Made by a program: the position numbers and the translations under genes. Of a DNA stretch of 59,311 nucleotides, positions 1 through 59,311 are shown piece after piece (position 1 is the first letter of the stretch; every line of letters starts with the position of its first letter). The notes below the pieces were generated by a model, which was given only the letters and a program-made list of their open reading frames with translations, did not search any database and was not told where the DNA came from. The DNA lies in NCBI GenBank assembly GCA_011389735.1, contig JAABTS010000013.1, positions 1-59,311 on the forward strand, in the 5' to 3' direction. Origin of the DNA: Desulfobacteraceae bacterium. Its GTDB lineage: Bacteria; Desulfobacterota; Desulfobacteria; Desulfobacterales; JAABTS01.

Positions 1-57
1 AACATTCAACATTCAGCATTCAACATTCAACATCCAGCATTCAACATTCAACATAAA
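1..57. repeat. Heptad array (AACATTC)n at the left edge
   Basis: About eight units of the 7-bp repeat AACATTC, with CAGCATT and CATCCAG variants, run from the first base. The array continues into a family A half element at 64-113, so this is the cargo of an A element cut by the window edge. The same heptad fills 20123-20541 and the right edge at 59234-59311. Confidence 0.9.
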
Positions 58-63
58 AAAATC

Positions 64-6541: not shown

Positions 6542-6738
6542 GGGTTTGGTTCTATCTTCAGCCAGTATATGACACTGATGGACACTGATGGACATTGATG
6601 GACACTGATGGACACGGATATACACGGATAAATATGGATTTTATAATGATTATATCTATTTATGTTCATCCGTGTTCATCCGTGTTCATCCGTGTTCATC
6701 CGTGTCTAAGATGTCCGGCCCATATCAGAAACAAGCCC
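6542..6738. mobile_element. Family B MITE-like element B1 with decamer-array cargo
   Basis: The left end GGGTTTGGTTCTATCTTCAG (6542-6561) and the inverted right end (minus strand GGGCTTGTTTCTGATATGGG, finishing at 6738) are matching termini. An exact 8-bp direct repeat CAAATCAA flanks them at 6534-6541 and 6739-6746. The interior is a fold-back array: GACACTGATG decamers on the left and TTCATCCGTG decamers on the right. No coding region is present. The insertion abuts mgtE and one copy of the 8-bp repeat contains the mgtE stop codon. The left flank (6519-6541) is a family A arm. Confidence 0.85.
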
Positions 6739-9335: not shown

Positions 9336-10058
9336 TCAGGAATCGGTTAGCTGTTTCCACCTTTTTTCATTTACGGATATTGTGTACCGGTTTTTGAGTT
9401 CGTCTATCCACGCCTGATACGCTTCTTCGGTCTTTTTTTGCTTCAGGCGTTTTACGATCAGCCTGTCCATTTTCGATTTTTCTTTCTCCCCGATGGATTC
9501 GTCTTTCAGGTTTTCTTCATAATACTGAGCCATTTCTTCCATCGTAATAGTTATTTTATCGGCGACTTCGGTTTCAATCAGTTTTTCCATTAGAATCCGG
9601 GCCCTGAGTTCGTTTTCCCAGGCTGAATACGATATGGCGGCTTCCAGCAAGGATTGCTCGAACGTGTCGTCCGGATATAGAGACTTTATAGCGTCCACTT
9701 CTTTTTGAATTTCTTCTTCCGATACGGTGATATCCAGCTCCTTTGCCCGTTCCTGCAATATGAGCCTTTCCGTGAGTTGTTTCAAGACGTTTATTCTCAG
9801 CACCTTGATCTGAACCGATTTGTATATGTCGTCTTCAGGATCGTTGAATGTTTCATAAGGATAGGCGGTCTTGGCGATTTCGAGAGACCGGTTGTAAGCC
9901 TCGATTGTGAGCACGGATTCATTCACCTTGACAAGATATTCGGGAGGGGGATTCGGGGGCGGTTTTTCACAGGCCGGACTTCCGAACACCAAAAAGACGT
10001 ATCCCAATAAAACAGGTGTTTTCATTATGCGCCGGGCTATTTGATCAAATGGATTCAT
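9336..10058 (-). CDS. SurA N-terminal-domain protein without parvulin domain, probable lipoprotein
   Basis: A 240-residue exported protein. After MKTPVLLGYVFLVFGSPAC (Cys 30 as possible lipid site, weak lipobox) comes a proline-rich linker and a SurA_N-type helical domain (YLVKVNESVLTIEAYNRSLE). The rest is charged helix, with WENELRARILMEKLIETEVAD and a C-terminal YQAWIDELKNRYTISVNEKRW that parallels the end of SurA. There is no parvulin domain, so isomerase activity is not expected; a chaperone or tether role is inferred. It follows mfd by 51 bp. No strong ribosome site is seen for either candidate start (10058 or 10025). Confidence 0.7.
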   Translation of the reverse strand: MNPFDQIARRIMKTPVLLGYVFLVFGSPACEKPPPNPPPEYLVKVNESVLTIEAYNRSLEIAKTAYPYETFNDPEDDIYKSVQIKVLRINVLKQLTERLILQERAKELDITVSEEEIQKEVDAIKSLYPDDTFEQSLLEAAISYSAWENELRARILMEKLIETEVADKITITMEEMAQYYEENLKDESIGEKEKSKMDRLIVKRLKQKKTEEAYQAWIDELKNRYTISVNEKRWKQLTDS

Positions 10059-13592: not shown

Positions 13593-13615
13593 TGCAAAAC
13601 CTTATTATAATATGC

Positions 13616-13753
13616 GGGCTTGGTTCTATTTTCGGCCAATCGATATGTTCAAATCGGGATCGGGATCGTAATCGGTATCGAAGGATTCAATTTCGATCCC
13701 GATCCCGATCCCGATCCCGATAAATGAAAATGGCCGAAGTTAGAACCAAGCCC
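13616..13753. mobile_element. Family B MITE-like element B2 with hexamer-array cargo
   Basis: The left end GGGCTTGGTTCTATTTTCGG (from 13616) and the right end, which reads GGGCTTGGTTCTAACTTCGG on the minus strand (from 13753), are near-identical inverted termini. They are flanked by an exact 8-bp direct repeat TAATATGC at 13608-13615 and 13754-13761. The interior (13656-13722) is a GGGATC / GATCCC fold-back array with centre GGATTCAATTTCGAT. This is the cleanest copy for defining the family boundaries. It lies 24 bp upstream of mfd. Confidence 0.9.
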
Positions 13754-13792
13754 TAATATGCGGATTGACGAAAGTTCGGTTCGATACATGCT

Positions 13793-13900
13793 TTTACGGT
13801 CTTCGGGAAATTGAATTTCGCTGCTCTGCCGGCCCGGGATATACGAACGGCGTTATCCCGAGCCGGCCGTCTCGTGAAATTCAATTTTTGAAAACCTGAT
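13793..13900 (+). repeat. Family A palindromic element, complete
   Basis: Left arm with CTTCGGGAAATTGAATTTCG, core GCCGGCCCGGGATATACGAA then CGGCGTTATCCCGAGCCGG, right arm CGTGAAATTCAATTTTTGAA. The base changes in the two arms compensate each other (TTGAATTTCG against CGTGAAATTCAA), which fits selection or recent copying of a fold-back structure. Confidence 0.85.
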
Positions 13901-15847: not shown

Positions 15848-15991
15848 AAATCGGTATCGGTATCGAATTATTACGATCCCTATTACGATCCCGATTACGA
15901 TCCCGATCCCGATCCCGATTACGATCCCGATCCCGATCCCGATCCCGATTTTGATTTTGATGAAACTGTAAACAAGAAATGAAGGATGCTA
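15848..15991 (+). mobile_element. Family C element C1, left end missing, hexamer-array cargo
   Basis: AATCGGTATCGGTATCGAAT then TATTACGATCCC opens the array, and it closes with GATTTTGATGAAACTGTAAA then CAAGAAATGAAGGATGC. Both borders match the complete element at 51799-51945 almost base for base. The left terminus (GGCATC...) is absent; the array begins directly against the GC-rich direct repeat. The element ends about 20 bp before the tetR promoter. Confidence 0.75.
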
Positions 15992-20070: not shown

Positions 20071-20766
20071 TAGCTTTTTAGATAATTAGTTTCACTGTGT
20101 TGTCGGCCCGGGGATATACGTATGTTGAATATGTTGAATGTTGAATATGTTGAATGTTGAATGTTGGATGTTGAATGTTGGATGTTGAATGTTGGATGTT
20201 GAATGTTGGATGTTGAATGTTGGATGTTGAATTTTGGATGTTGGATGTTGGATGTTGAATGTTGGATGTTGGATGTTGGATGTTGGATGTTGGATGTTGA
20301 ATGTTGGATGTTGAATTTTGAATTTTGAATGTTGGATGTTGGATGTTGGATGTTGAATTTTGGATGTTGGATGTTGAATTTTGAATTTTGAATGTTGAAT
20401 GTTGAATGTTGAATGTTGAATGTTGAATGTTGGATGTTGGATGTTGGATGTTGGATGTTGGATGTTGGATGTTGGATGTTGGATGTTGGATGTTGGATGT
20501 TGAATGTTGAATGTTGAATGTTGAATGTTGGATGTTGGATGTGAGCGCCCCTCATTTAGCATTTAACATTTAACATTCAACACAAATAATTCAGCATTCA
20601 ACACAAATAATTTAACATTCAACACAAATAATTTAACATTCAACACAAATAATTTAACATTCAACACAAATAATTTAACATTCAACACAAATAATTCAGC
20701 ATTCAACACAAATTGCAACAATCCCGGGCCCGCCGCCATGTGAAATTTAATTTCTGAAAACCTGTA
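20071..20766 (+). repeat. Family A element split by a 0.6-kb heptad array
   Basis: The left arm (20071-20120: TAGCTTTTTAGATAATTAGT, then GTCGGCCCGGGGATATACG) and the right arm (20722-20766: TCCCGGGCCCGCCGCCATGT, then TTTCTGAAAACCTG) together make one A element. Cargo at 20123-20721 begins TGTTG and ends CAACA. It comprises about 58 heptads (TGTTGAA/TGTTGGA, 20123-20541), a centre GAGCGCCCCTCATTTAGCAT, and about seven 20-bp units TTAACATTCAACACAAATAA (20571-20708) in inverse orientation. Long open frames on the minus strand are artefacts, since the heptad has no stop in those frames. Confidence 0.9.
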
Positions 20767-25419: not shown

Positions 25420-25752
25420 GGGCTTAATTCTTATTTCGGCCAACTTAAATTAACCACGAAAAACACGAAAAACACGAAAACACACGAAAAGAATTTCATA
25501 AACATTTTTTGTAGATTTCGTGGCGGCGTTTCACGTAGGTCGGGTTAGCGGACACCTGCATTTCAAACATCCCCGTAAATTGCTGGATTATCATGATTGC
25601 CTTAAAGTCCCATGCCGAACTCGCGTAACCCGACGTTGACTTAAAGGAACCACGAAAAACACGAAAACACACGAAAAGAATTTCATAAACATTTTTCGTA
25701 GATTTCGTGGCGGCGTTTTGAAATATAAGCGGCCGGTTTTTGAACTAAACCC
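25420..25752. mobile_element. Family B MITE-like element B3 with nested fold-back cargo
   Basis: The left end GGGCTTAATTCTTATTTCGG (from 25420) and the right end (minus strand GGGTTTAGTTCAAAAACCGG, from 25752) are inverted termini. Flanking them is an exact 8-bp direct repeat GAAAAATA at 25412-25419 and 25753-25760. The interior has two direct copies of a CACGAAAA-type unit of about 70 bp (25453-25531 and 25650-25717, each ending TAGATTTCGTGGCGGCGTTT). A third sequence (25532-25640) separates them. No protein-coding region is seen. Confidence 0.88.
25532..25640. repeat. Fold-back repeat with GTCGGGTTA ends, nested in element B3
   Basis: CACGTAGGTCGGGTTAGCG at the left and CGCGTAACCCGACGTTGAC at the right are inverse complements over GTCGGGTTA[G/C]GCG. 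It sits exactly between the two direct copies of the CACGAAAA unit, as if it had inserted into, or been duplicated with, that unit. Confidence 0.7.
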
Positions 25753-30073: not shown

Positions 30074-30199
30074 TTATAGCCTTCAAGAAATCAAATTTCA
30101 CTGCGTTGTCGGCCCGTGATATACGAATTGTATTATCCCGGGCCCGCCGCCTTGCGGGATTTAATGTCTGAAAACCTGTAATTTCCGGCAGGCTATAGC
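30074..30199 (+). repeat. Family A element plus an extra inverted arm end
   Basis: A textbook copy (TATAGCCTTCAAGAAATCAA; GTTGTCGGCCCGTGATATAC; TATTATCCCGGGCCCGCCGC; TGTCTGAAAACCTGTA) ending at 30180. It is followed at once by ATTTCCGGCAGGCTATAGC, which is the inverse of a left arm tip. This suggests two copies once abutted and the middle was lost. Confidence 0.85.
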
Positions 30200-31060: not shown

Positions 31061-31123
31061 GGGCGGGATTCTAATTTCGGCCATTTTAATAAAACATAAT
31101 CGGCCGGTTTTCGAACCAACCCC
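31061..31123. mobile_element. Short family B element B4, cargo nearly absent
   Basis: The left end GGGCGGGATTCTAATTTCGG and the right end (minus strand GGGGTTGGTTCGAAAACCGG) are only about 20 bp apart. The interior is ATTTTAATAAAACATAAT. No matching 8-bp flanking repeat is visible; the right flank runs straight into a family A right arm, so the left target side may have been lost. Confidence 0.65.
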
Positions 31124-44009: not shown

Positions 44010-44147
44010 GTTTTTTAGCTGAAAATAGTAAATAAATATTCCTGTTCAATTCAATTGATATCATTGGGATACAGGTTTTTCAGATATTATGGTTCGGAAG
44101 GATAGGGGGAGGAGATAATGCAGGTCGTATCTCTCCGACCGATATAT

Positions 44148-44250
44148 ATTTTCAGAAATTAAATTTCATAAGGCGGCGGCCTGGGAGCATTCTGTTCGTA
44201 TATTCCAGGCCGACAACGCGGTGAAATTCGATTTCTGGAAGACTATAACA
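44148..44250 (-). repeat. Family A palindromic element, complete
   Basis: TTTTCAGAAATTAAATTTCA, AAGGCGGCGGCCTGGGAGCA, TATTCCAGGCCGACAACGCG, GTGAAATTCGATTTCTGGAA, GACTATAA: a full copy in minus orientation. In the core GGCCTGGGA/TTCCAGGCC keeps pairing although it differs from the usual GGCCCGGGA, a compensated change. Confidence 0.85.
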
Positions 44251-51945: not shown

Positions 51946-52101
51946 TTAATTTCTAATTAATTTCAAAACGTTGTCGGCCCGTGGATATACGAATTTTATT
52001 ATGTTGAATGTTGAATTTGAGTCCCCTCATTTAGCATTCAACATAAAATGCAACAATCCCGGGCCTGCCGCCTTGTGAAATTTAATTCCTGAAAAGCTAT
52101 A
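51946..52101 (+). repeat. Family A element with minimal heptad cargo in its loop
   Basis: Left arm remainder TAATTAATTTCAAAACGTTG, TCGGCCCGTGGATATACG; right half TCCCGGGCCTGCCGCCTTGT, GAAATTTAATTCCTGAAAAG. Between them, 52002-52056, sits a 55-bp cargo that starts TGTTGAATGTTGAATTTGAG and ends CATAAAATGCAACAA. It has the same centre (CCCCTCATTTAGCATT) as the 0.6-kb array at 20123-20721. It is therefore the unexpanded form of the same cargo in the same position. Confidence 0.88.
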
Positions 52102-55668: not shown

Positions 55669-55711
55669 TTTTCGTTCAGCCGCTATTAGAAAGATTCCCG
55701 GCTGACACCAT

Positions 55712-55897
55712 ACGGTTTTCAGAAATTAAGTTTCACCAGGCGACAGGCCCGGGATAATACTATTCTTATATTTCGGGCCGATACGCATGGAATTTTCTTT
55801 CTGGAAGTTTATACTTTTACAAGGCGGGCGGCCTGGGATAATACTCTTCGCATATTCCAGGTCGGCGTCACTGTGAAATTTGATTTCCGGAAGCAAT
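55712..55897 (-). repeat. Two family A elements in tandem
   Basis: First copy 55712-55810 (GGTTTTCAGAAATTAAGTTT, ACAGGCCCGGGATAATACTA, TTTCGGGCCGATACGCATGG). The second copy 55811-55897 has lost its first arm tip (ACTTTTACAAGGCGGGCGGC, CTGGGATAATACTCTTCGCA, TTCCAGGTCGGCGTCACTGT, GATTTCCGGAAG). Both are in the same orientation, and the end of the second is 20 bp before the start of the sigma-54 activator gene, so it may lie in its promoter or leader. Confidence 0.82.
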
Positions 55898-59174: not shown

Positions 59175-59182
59175 CCTCGGGA

Positions 59183-59311
59183 TTGTTGCATTTTGTGTTG
59201 AATGCTAAATGGTAAATGCTGAATGGGGGACTCGCATTCAACATTCAACATTCAACATTCAACATTCAACATTCAACATTCAACATTCAACATTCAACAT
59301 TCAACATTCAA
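59183..59311. repeat. Heptad cargo and array at the right edge
   Basis: TTGTTGCATTTTGTGTTGAA, then TGCTAAATGGTAAATGCTGA is the inverse of the cargo border of the family A element at 51946-52101 (ATGCAACAA end), preceded by CTCGGGA as remnant of the A core. From 59234 a run of CATTCAA heptads (11 units) goes to the last base. The element's outer arm is not seen next to the hisHF stop, so that side is truncated. Confidence 0.85.

Follow-up and report, generated by a model that had tools for sequence, protein, structure and literature searches.

PF05635 has been described as the S23 open reading frame (ORF) family of 23S rRNA intervening sequences (IVSs) and as resembling the Avd protein of diversity-generating retroelements (excerpt of PMC10053308). 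The S23p proteins are four-helix bundles, which the cited part of PMC4990558 calls proteins without known function; the same text reports that Ralph and McClelland proposed in 1993 that IVSs are mobile with the help of the ORF. Repeat words of Geobacter metallireducens are paired on opposite strands (cited parts of PMC2700814 and PMC2996986), and regulation is proposed for the repeats described in the excerpts of PMC2700814 and PMC4679880. GxxExxY proteins are named in PMC8934634 and PMC12085832. In the literature searched by titles and abstract openings, no report was found of either gene, IVP/S23 or GxxExxY, lying between simple-sequence arms. The hairpins described below, which occur as the cargo of MITEs, look like stripped-down forms of a little-noticed fold-back element found in several bacterial groups.

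The window, by which we mean the whole 59,311-nt stretch that was analyzed, is contig C24 of a 6.52-Mb genome in 477 contigs. Reading and a script identified five elements in it (B1, B2, B3, C2 and C3), each bounded by inverted ends and, beyond these, by an exact 8-bp direct repeat. B2 (13616–13753, plus strand) has the TIRs GGGCTTGGTTCTA at 13616–13638 and 13731–13753 and is bounded by the 8-bp TSD TAATATGC at 13608–13615 and 13754–13761. Its hexamer fold-back cargo lies at 13656–13722 on the plus strand, where a left arm of ATCGNN words (GGGATC..GTATCG) is followed by the short loop AAGGATTCAATTT and by a right arm of four CGATCC words. A hexamer array also fills the C-end MITE C3 (51799–51945, plus strand; TSD TTAATTTC). 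The first-pass annotation had named a third hexamer-filled element, C1; the GATCCC array that we took to be the one meant (15850–15949) has a C right end at 15966–15989 and no left C end, and the feature as a whole (15850–15989, plus strand) adjoins a B-element fragment on its left. That claim stands for B2 and C3 only. The other cargoes were read as it described them: B1 (6542–6738, plus strand; TSD CAAATCAA) is a B-end MITE with a decamer array, and hairpins of the CACGAAAA/CACAAAG type occur in B3 and C2. In C2 (47696–47857, plus strand; TSD TCGCTTTC) the C ends enclose a CACAAAG/GCGCAAAG hairpin, and in B3 (25420–25752, plus strand; TSD GAAAAATA) the B ends enclose two CACGAAAA hairpins flanking one GTAGGTCGGGTTAGCG..CGCGTAACCCGAC hairpin. 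At 31061–31123 (63 bp), two B ends stand with hardly anything between them, apparently a B-CACGAA element minus its cargo.

Elements were collected from the window and from 60 stretches chosen around matches to the B and C ends, together 936,691 nt or 14% of the genome; this sample, having been picked by end matches, is a biased one. We scanned the 936,691 nt without reference to the end sequences, requiring a TIR and a perfect 8-bp repeat; of the 59 hits, 27 started with GGGCTT and 20 with GGCATC. The same scan with 7-bp repeats gave one hit of each kind, and with 9-bp repeats four GGGCTT hits and no GGCATC hit. Genome-wide, the B-end pattern (up to three mismatches) was matched 418 times and the C right-end pattern 119 times, against 0 for each reversed pattern. 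The excess of the two starts at 8 bp and the pattern counts relative to their controls therefore identify B and C as MITE families. The 0.94 Mb held 40 B and 39 C elements (one C doubtful) of 73–345 bp, a length that leaves too little room for a transposase gene. B-type ends were present in three of 39 other genomes of the same order (G022, G034 and G037). Neither an empty site nor a new insertion was seen, the 39 genomes compared being drawn from the same order only; the sampled 14% of the genome contained no autonomous B or C transposon, and a plasmid search with the B2 sequence returned no match. In G022, a B-type end adjoins a 426-aa ORF that ends in DUF6399 (PF19936, 4.2e-40; L365, G022:C58, 149–1459). 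This ORF may be an autonomous partner or transposase of the B elements. No relative of it was found in the own-genome sample, and in G034 a short relic (56% over 36 aa) lies beside the B element of L069.

At least six classes of cargo were found between B ends in the 0.94-Mb sample. Of 40 B elements, 17 held a ggagcgcc hairpin (GGAGCGCC/GGGGGTTGCAA), ten the hexamer, four CACGAA (one of them, B3, also holding gggtta, GTAGGTCGGGTTAGCG), three gggtta, three CAAAG and one the decamer; two were composites. Between C ends there were two classes, hexamer (29 of 39) and CAAAG (seven), and the remaining three comprised two short hexamer forms and one locus (L048) that is probably not a C element. Hexamer and CAAAG cargo were thus common to both families, and a one-to-one link between end family and cargo, the outcome that the first-pass annotation had set against its own reading, fails at the family level. 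It nearly holds at the subfamily level. When composites and unclassified elements were left out (two B, three C), the nearest neighbor by 22-nt ends carried the same cargo for 35.7 of 38 B elements (permuted mean 10.4, maximum 18.6) and for 36.0 of 36 C elements (permuted mean 24.2, maximum 30.3). This coupling of end variant and cargo class within each family indicates that most sampled copies derive from a few captures. The pattern is one of a few separate captures, followed by joint amplification of each cargo with its own end variant, plus rare chimaeras; it is not one of free shuffling.

Chimaeras are what would be expected if recombination between like arrays kept swapping MITE ends, so that ends are replaced around shared cargo. 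Two C elements (L036 and L042) join the C-hex1 and C-hex2 variants at a junction inside the array, and in the composite L020 the outer ends are bordered by 8-bp repeats that match. However, the end variant predicts the cargo in the proportions given above, and no B/C chimaera was seen among the hexamer contexts read; such ongoing exchange is very unlikely as an account of the cargo. The suggestion that ends are replaced around the arrays is borne out rarely, by L036 and L042.

The hexamer is not confined to B and C ends. It forms the array 'D' at 568–735 of the window (plus strand), the flanks of which recur around L039:58–93, and in L006 (about 9600–9696) a hexamer hairpin is nested in the heptamer hairpin of an A-type palindrome. 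A is a third abundant palindrome family (TTTCAGAAATTAAATTTCAC..GGCCCGGGATATACGAA..), in places with central heptamer arrays, and has examples in the window at 13807–13898, 30087–30178, 44142–44241 and 55709–55893. A heptamer fold-back (TGTTGAA / AACATTC) at 20120–20720 (plus strand) lies inside an A-type palindrome, and a small A-type palindrome with a short heptamer hairpin was read by eye at 51973–52070 (plus strand). Further heptamer arrays, with no strand assigned, stand at the left end of the window (1–60) and run off its right end (59180–59311). By a strict pattern, 19 heptamer arrays were recognized, none of them inside a B or C element; a loose test placed an A-type palindrome motif within 250 nt of 14 of the 19. 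The genome G034 is from a different family within the order, and its B-type ends surround hairpins of AATCAGGAT and GTAGGGGC. The modular combination of ends and cargo is thus borne out by the presence of the hexamer in B, C, E, D and an A-type palindrome and of other cargo in the B-type ends of G034; ongoing shuffling is not supported, as end variant and cargo class go together within each family. At the G034 loci L066 and L070, B-type ends surround GTAGGGGC..GCCCCTAC hairpins, another widespread bacterial repeat.

A survey of 297 genomes from the phylum found the pure hexamer pattern in three and the CACGAA triplet pattern in ten, the own genome being counted in both; the reversed controls gave 0 each. 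One of the three hexamer matches (G189) was rejected because it reads as a coding repeat, and G279 has bare hexamer hairpins between genes. In public genome contigs, a hexamer 28-mer was present in at least 97 stretches from many phyla, and many among those listed read as coding repeats. Profiles built here, from sequences without stops, detected an IVP or GxxExxY gene in 0 of the 97 stretches listed, and the exact B-hex loop was found in 0 stretches of public genome contigs. In Thiorhodococcus mannitoliphagus (L132, L137, L138, L172 and L204), hexamer hairpins lie between recurring flanks (GAGGCTTCGCCTCAGACCGACG .. GCGCCCTCAAGGATTCTAG in some records), seemingly another set of ends.

The arrays themselves vary. 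Among many copies, their length differs by whole units, and the hexamer loops differ among B, C-hex1 and C-hex2; the difference between the B and C loops implies capture or remaking of the hexamer cargo on more than one occasion. When folding was compared with shuffled sequence, the B2 hairpin (13639–13730) had a z score of −4.9, with 0 of 200 shuffles as good, and the hairpins of B1 and C2 had z scores of −5.3 and −4.1. The other three of the six cargo stretches gave no better fold than their shuffles: C3 (z −0.3), the array 592–735 (z −0.4) and the CACGAAAA hairpin of B3 (z −0.9), for which the first hairpin alone was folded. This is expected for old or strongly repetitive arrays, and it weakens the claim of selection for a perfect hairpin. 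Variation by whole units, unlike loops and the poor folding of C3 and of the array 592–735 would all be consistent with convergent slippage, in which short palindromic words in MITE interiors grew into arrays by replication slippage and template switching and the likeness of B and C cargo is a coincidence of favored words. The several distinct cargo classes within B alone argue against it, as do the genes to which we now turn.

Of nine CACGAA loci read in other genomes, two (L103 and L109) lead directly into GxxExxY genes, with E-values against the profile of 6.7e-41 and 1.6e-39. To score flanks we used no word list; the spanning score is the best local match between the 200 nt upstream of the profile match and the reverse complement of the 200 nt downstream of it, and the pass threshold (at least 14) was chosen after the scores had been seen. 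Fixed word patterns (9/32 loci versus 0/30 controls) had proved too narrow and gave way to this word-free score. Each genome contributed its best match as the gene locus, and a search took in at most 30 genomes (42 of 118, 69 of 118 and 36 of 79 genomes had matches). Two broken or partial own GxxExxY genes (L212 and L213) were left out of both the word-pattern and the spanning test, and of the 30 IVP loci 26 were read, with L324, L328, L329 and L331 set aside as weak matches.

GxxExxY genes (29 loci from other genomes and three own) had a median spanning score of 16.5, and 24 of 32 passed. PIN genes from the same phylum sample, used as controls, had a median of 8 and a maximum of 10, and 0/30 passed. 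Genes for the four-helix-bundle IVP had a median of 17 (20/30 passing), and GxxExxY genes of a second phylum, that of G335 (record L178, titled Planctomycetota bacterium), a median of 17.5 (24/30 passing). Genes thus lie between inverted simple-sequence arms in two phyla. Eight of 32 GxxExxY loci, six of 30 in the second phylum and ten of 30 IVP loci stayed below the threshold. Neither flank contained a hairpin of its own in 15 of the 24 passing GxxExxY loci, 16 of the 20 IVP loci and 18 of the 24 second-phylum loci, which places the gene itself in the loop; in the rest, extra hairpins lie beside the gene. Shuffled downstream flanks passed in 1 of 640 cases for GxxExxY and 1 of 600 for PIN. 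Among other ORFs of the same loci, 22 were scored and two passed, these being the GxxExxY gene itself (L241 and L341, where the gene starts before position 1501), which leaves 0/20. Mismatched flank pairs within a family sometimes scored well because words recur between loci, their 99th percentile being 18 for GxxExxY, 16 for IVP and 20 for the second phylum; 12 of 32 GxxExxY loci exceeded the stricter bar of 18. In G335, the four-helix-bundle family had 20 matches, several at contig ends, suggesting multi-copy elements.

The arm words of these genes recur in the MITE cargo. Outside the own genome, GxxExxY arms were of the CACGAA (L241), CACGGAT (L231), GCAAAG (L223, L229 and L230) and CACAAAG (L225) types, and these are the words of B3, B1, B-CAAAG and C2, respectively. 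GxxExxY genes of the TCTGAA type (L209, L211 and L364) lie between complete hairpins and not in a single loop. The proposal that the arrays are fold-back units in themselves gains support from the use of their words as arms in stem-loops that bear a gene. The recurrence of these words around two particular gene families, and in two phyla, counts against convergent slippage. The arms also bear on whether the host retains the hairpins as terminators or as binding sites for regulators, their nearness to small genes being incidental. The bare hexamer hairpins between genes in G279 would fit such a role, and the paired tandem-repeat sites of Geobacter metallireducens have been read as global regulator binding sites (excerpt of PMC2700814). 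Yet 0/30 PIN genes of the same phylum sample have arms, the arms stand on both sides of the gene, and the multi-copy MITE setting resembles mobile DNA, so that we regard a host site as highly improbable.

The own genome has three intact GxxExxY genes, all beside simple-sequence words or hairpins. One of them (L210) has such words or hairpins on its upstream side, no spanning arm and a score of 7. In L211 (G000:C114, 501–2024), seven tandem TTGTCTGAAC.. ..AATCACAGTTCAGACA hairpins lie on one side of the GxxExxY gene and one more on the other. Two IVP genes have arms as well. Heptamer arms surround that of L308 (spanning score 47). Hexamer arms surround that of L316, where translation continues into the arm (EFDPDPDPDPD); the unit has the ends CTTAAGTTTTCGAA and TTCGAAAACTCC, with a copy of the direct repeat GGGAAAAC on either side. 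This gene-bearing hexamer element has internally deleted copies: the gene region is shorter by about 310 bp in L029, which retains both hexamer arms, and by about 200 bp in L015, which reaches the contig end within the second arm. Partial copies also occur at L323 and L059. No rRNA was seen by eye around L308 and L316, and an Rfam scan of the window, outside which these gene loci lie, found tRNAs only. Similar IVPs, judged by eye from the DVYR start, were found in G332, the genome of the Thiorhodococcus record L132 (L317; hexamer runs on both flanks, score only 10), and in G338, that of the gammaproteobacterial record L128 (L310; hexamer run on one flank, score only 9).

If a gene had been lost from such elements, the loops of gene-less arrays might retain traces of it. 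The two L316 gene junctions explain 12 of the 13 nt of the D loop, with 0/5000 shuffles as good; the corresponding figures were 18/5000 for B, 11/5000 for C-hex1, 4568/5000 for C-hex2 and 242/5000 for A-nested, all lenient by a factor of about two because the orientation was chosen for each loop. The D loop closely resembles the sequence expected after deletion of the L316 gene, and the B and C-hex1 loops are suggestive of gene remnants; C-hex2 and A-nested showed little or no sign of them in the 5000-shuffle test. Neither ggagcgcc nor gggtta, the most frequent of the other B cargoes, was linked to a gene. G034 provided a forward test, in which the surroundings of its two GxxExxY genes were predicted to match B cargo. 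Three B cargoes, of 15 stretches, matched the flanks of L364 at 25–67 (shuffled maximum 16), and this gene is flanked by the same CAGGAT hairpins that fill G034 B elements. The second gene (L363) sits in CACGGAA arms and had no match to B cargo (7–12). A match so far beyond shuffles strains convergent slippage, which we consider distinctly unlikely.

The gene could instead be the mobile part, with GxxExxY and IVP genes inserting into the loops of existing hairpins and gene-less hairpins being the ancestral empty sites. Other elements do land in hairpin loops: four of 39 C and one of 40 B elements lie between CACGAA arms, compared with 23 of 20,000 random placements, and in L029 a B element with the duplication ATTGAATC sits in the loop of a B-hexamer element. 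Against this, L029 and L015 are copies, with deletions, of an element that bears the gene, and each protein family is associated with several arm word types, unlike a gene with one target word; we consider gene insertion rather unlikely. In L050 (1455–1724), a GTAGGTCGGGTTAGCG-type hairpin has an inserted B-ggagcgcc element, with the duplication CATGATAA, in its loop.

Two own GxxExxY proteins match PF13366 (PDDEXK_3) at 2.8e-39 and 1.3e-36, and the proteins tested match PF13366 / TIGR04256 or TIGR02436, with no transposase family among the matches. The IVP proteins match the four-helix-bundle family TIGR02436, which we take to be the S23 ORF family of 23S rRNA IVSs. Many GxxExxY proteins begin with translated repeats, some of which are cosmopolitan. 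A sequence search with one own GxxExxY protein found no related solved structure, and the IVP of the heptamer-arm element has a solved relative, 2rld. A role in defense was considered and rejected, the only hits being weak ones to Cas4b (0.002) for one protein. The likeness to Avd hints at a possible RNA step.

Taken together, these data lead us to propose that the cargo probably consists of gene-less fold-back elements, with word-repeat arms and, when complete, one small gene, that were captured by MITE ends and multiplied there. The complete form would be a stem-loop with arms of imperfect runs of a 6–10-nt word and a loop of one small gene, encoding either a four-helix-bundle 23S rRNA IVP/S23 protein (hexamer and heptamer arms, in the own genome) or a GxxExxY protein of the PD-(D/E)XK superfamily (GCAAAG, CACAAAG, CACGAA, CACGGAT and CAGGAT arms). 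Loss of the gene would yield a bare hairpin. On a few separate occasions, hairpins would have come to lie between MITE ends (B and C, and E with the gene still inside), and each composite would then have multiplied as a unit, probably through transposases that act in trans and leave 8-bp duplications. Slippage would alter array length by whole units, recombination inside arrays would occasionally swap ends, and elements would sometimes land in the loops of older hairpins. In this scheme we infer the descent of gene-less cargo from gene-bearing forms, its capture by the ends and the acting transposase, and the stem-loops may themselves be mobile. Tentatively, and with rather less confidence, we suggest that GxxExxY or IVP/S23 stem-loops may form one broad class of autonomous fold-back mobile elements across phyla, in which the small protein would act on its own stem-loop as a predicted nuclease or as an RNA-binding partner of reverse transcription, and that many enigmatic hairpins may be gene-less offspring, some hitch-hiking in MITEs. 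The RNA-binding role is put forward because PF05635 resembles Avd (excerpt of PMC10053308). Hairpins of repeated words (CACGAAA.., CACGGATG.., GCAAAGGCG.., TGTTGAATG..) occur in diverse bacterial genomes, and no explanation of them was found in the literature searched. Once they are linked to two small protein families, hairpins and proteins alike acquire a role that can be tested; the link also makes the 1993 suggestion of the S23 stem-loop as a mobile element directly testable and illustrates a way in which MITEs gain new interiors.

Like the 23S rRNA IVS, those elements described here that carry an IVP gene enclose an S23-family ORF in a stem-loop that ends in inverted arms; the IVP ORF was enclosed by a stem in 20 of 30 loci (16 with the gene in the loop) and in L316 and L308. 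They differ in that L316 and L308 of the own genome lie among protein genes and have arms of a repeated word, that one own stem-loop is multi-copy and that gene-less relatives occur inside MITEs. With REPIN-RAYT systems the elements of both protein families share a gene next to palindromes that are also dispersed without it (excerpt of PMC3116915), as seen here in the G034 cargo and L364 flanks and in the hexamer and heptamer words around own IVP genes; however, the proteins belong to the PD-(D/E)XK superfamily or are four-helix bundles, not Y1 (Y1-HUH) tyrosine transposases, and the arms are tandem words, not REPs. IStrons, which consist of a group I intron and an IS200/605 transposase, likewise have a mobility gene in the loop of a large hairpin (excerpt of PMC4853749). 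The multicopy tandem-repeat sites of Geobacter and the TAACTGA repeats of Beggiatoaceae are also short repeated intergenic words, but the excerpts of PMC2700814, PMC2996986 and PMC4679880 mention no gene between paired arms. Finally, B and C resemble other bacterial MITEs in their short length, TIRs, fixed 8-bp target duplication, high copy number and absence of an internal transposase, and differ from them in that simple-sequence hairpins of several unrelated kinds occur between the ends of one family, some of these kinds being common to the other family.
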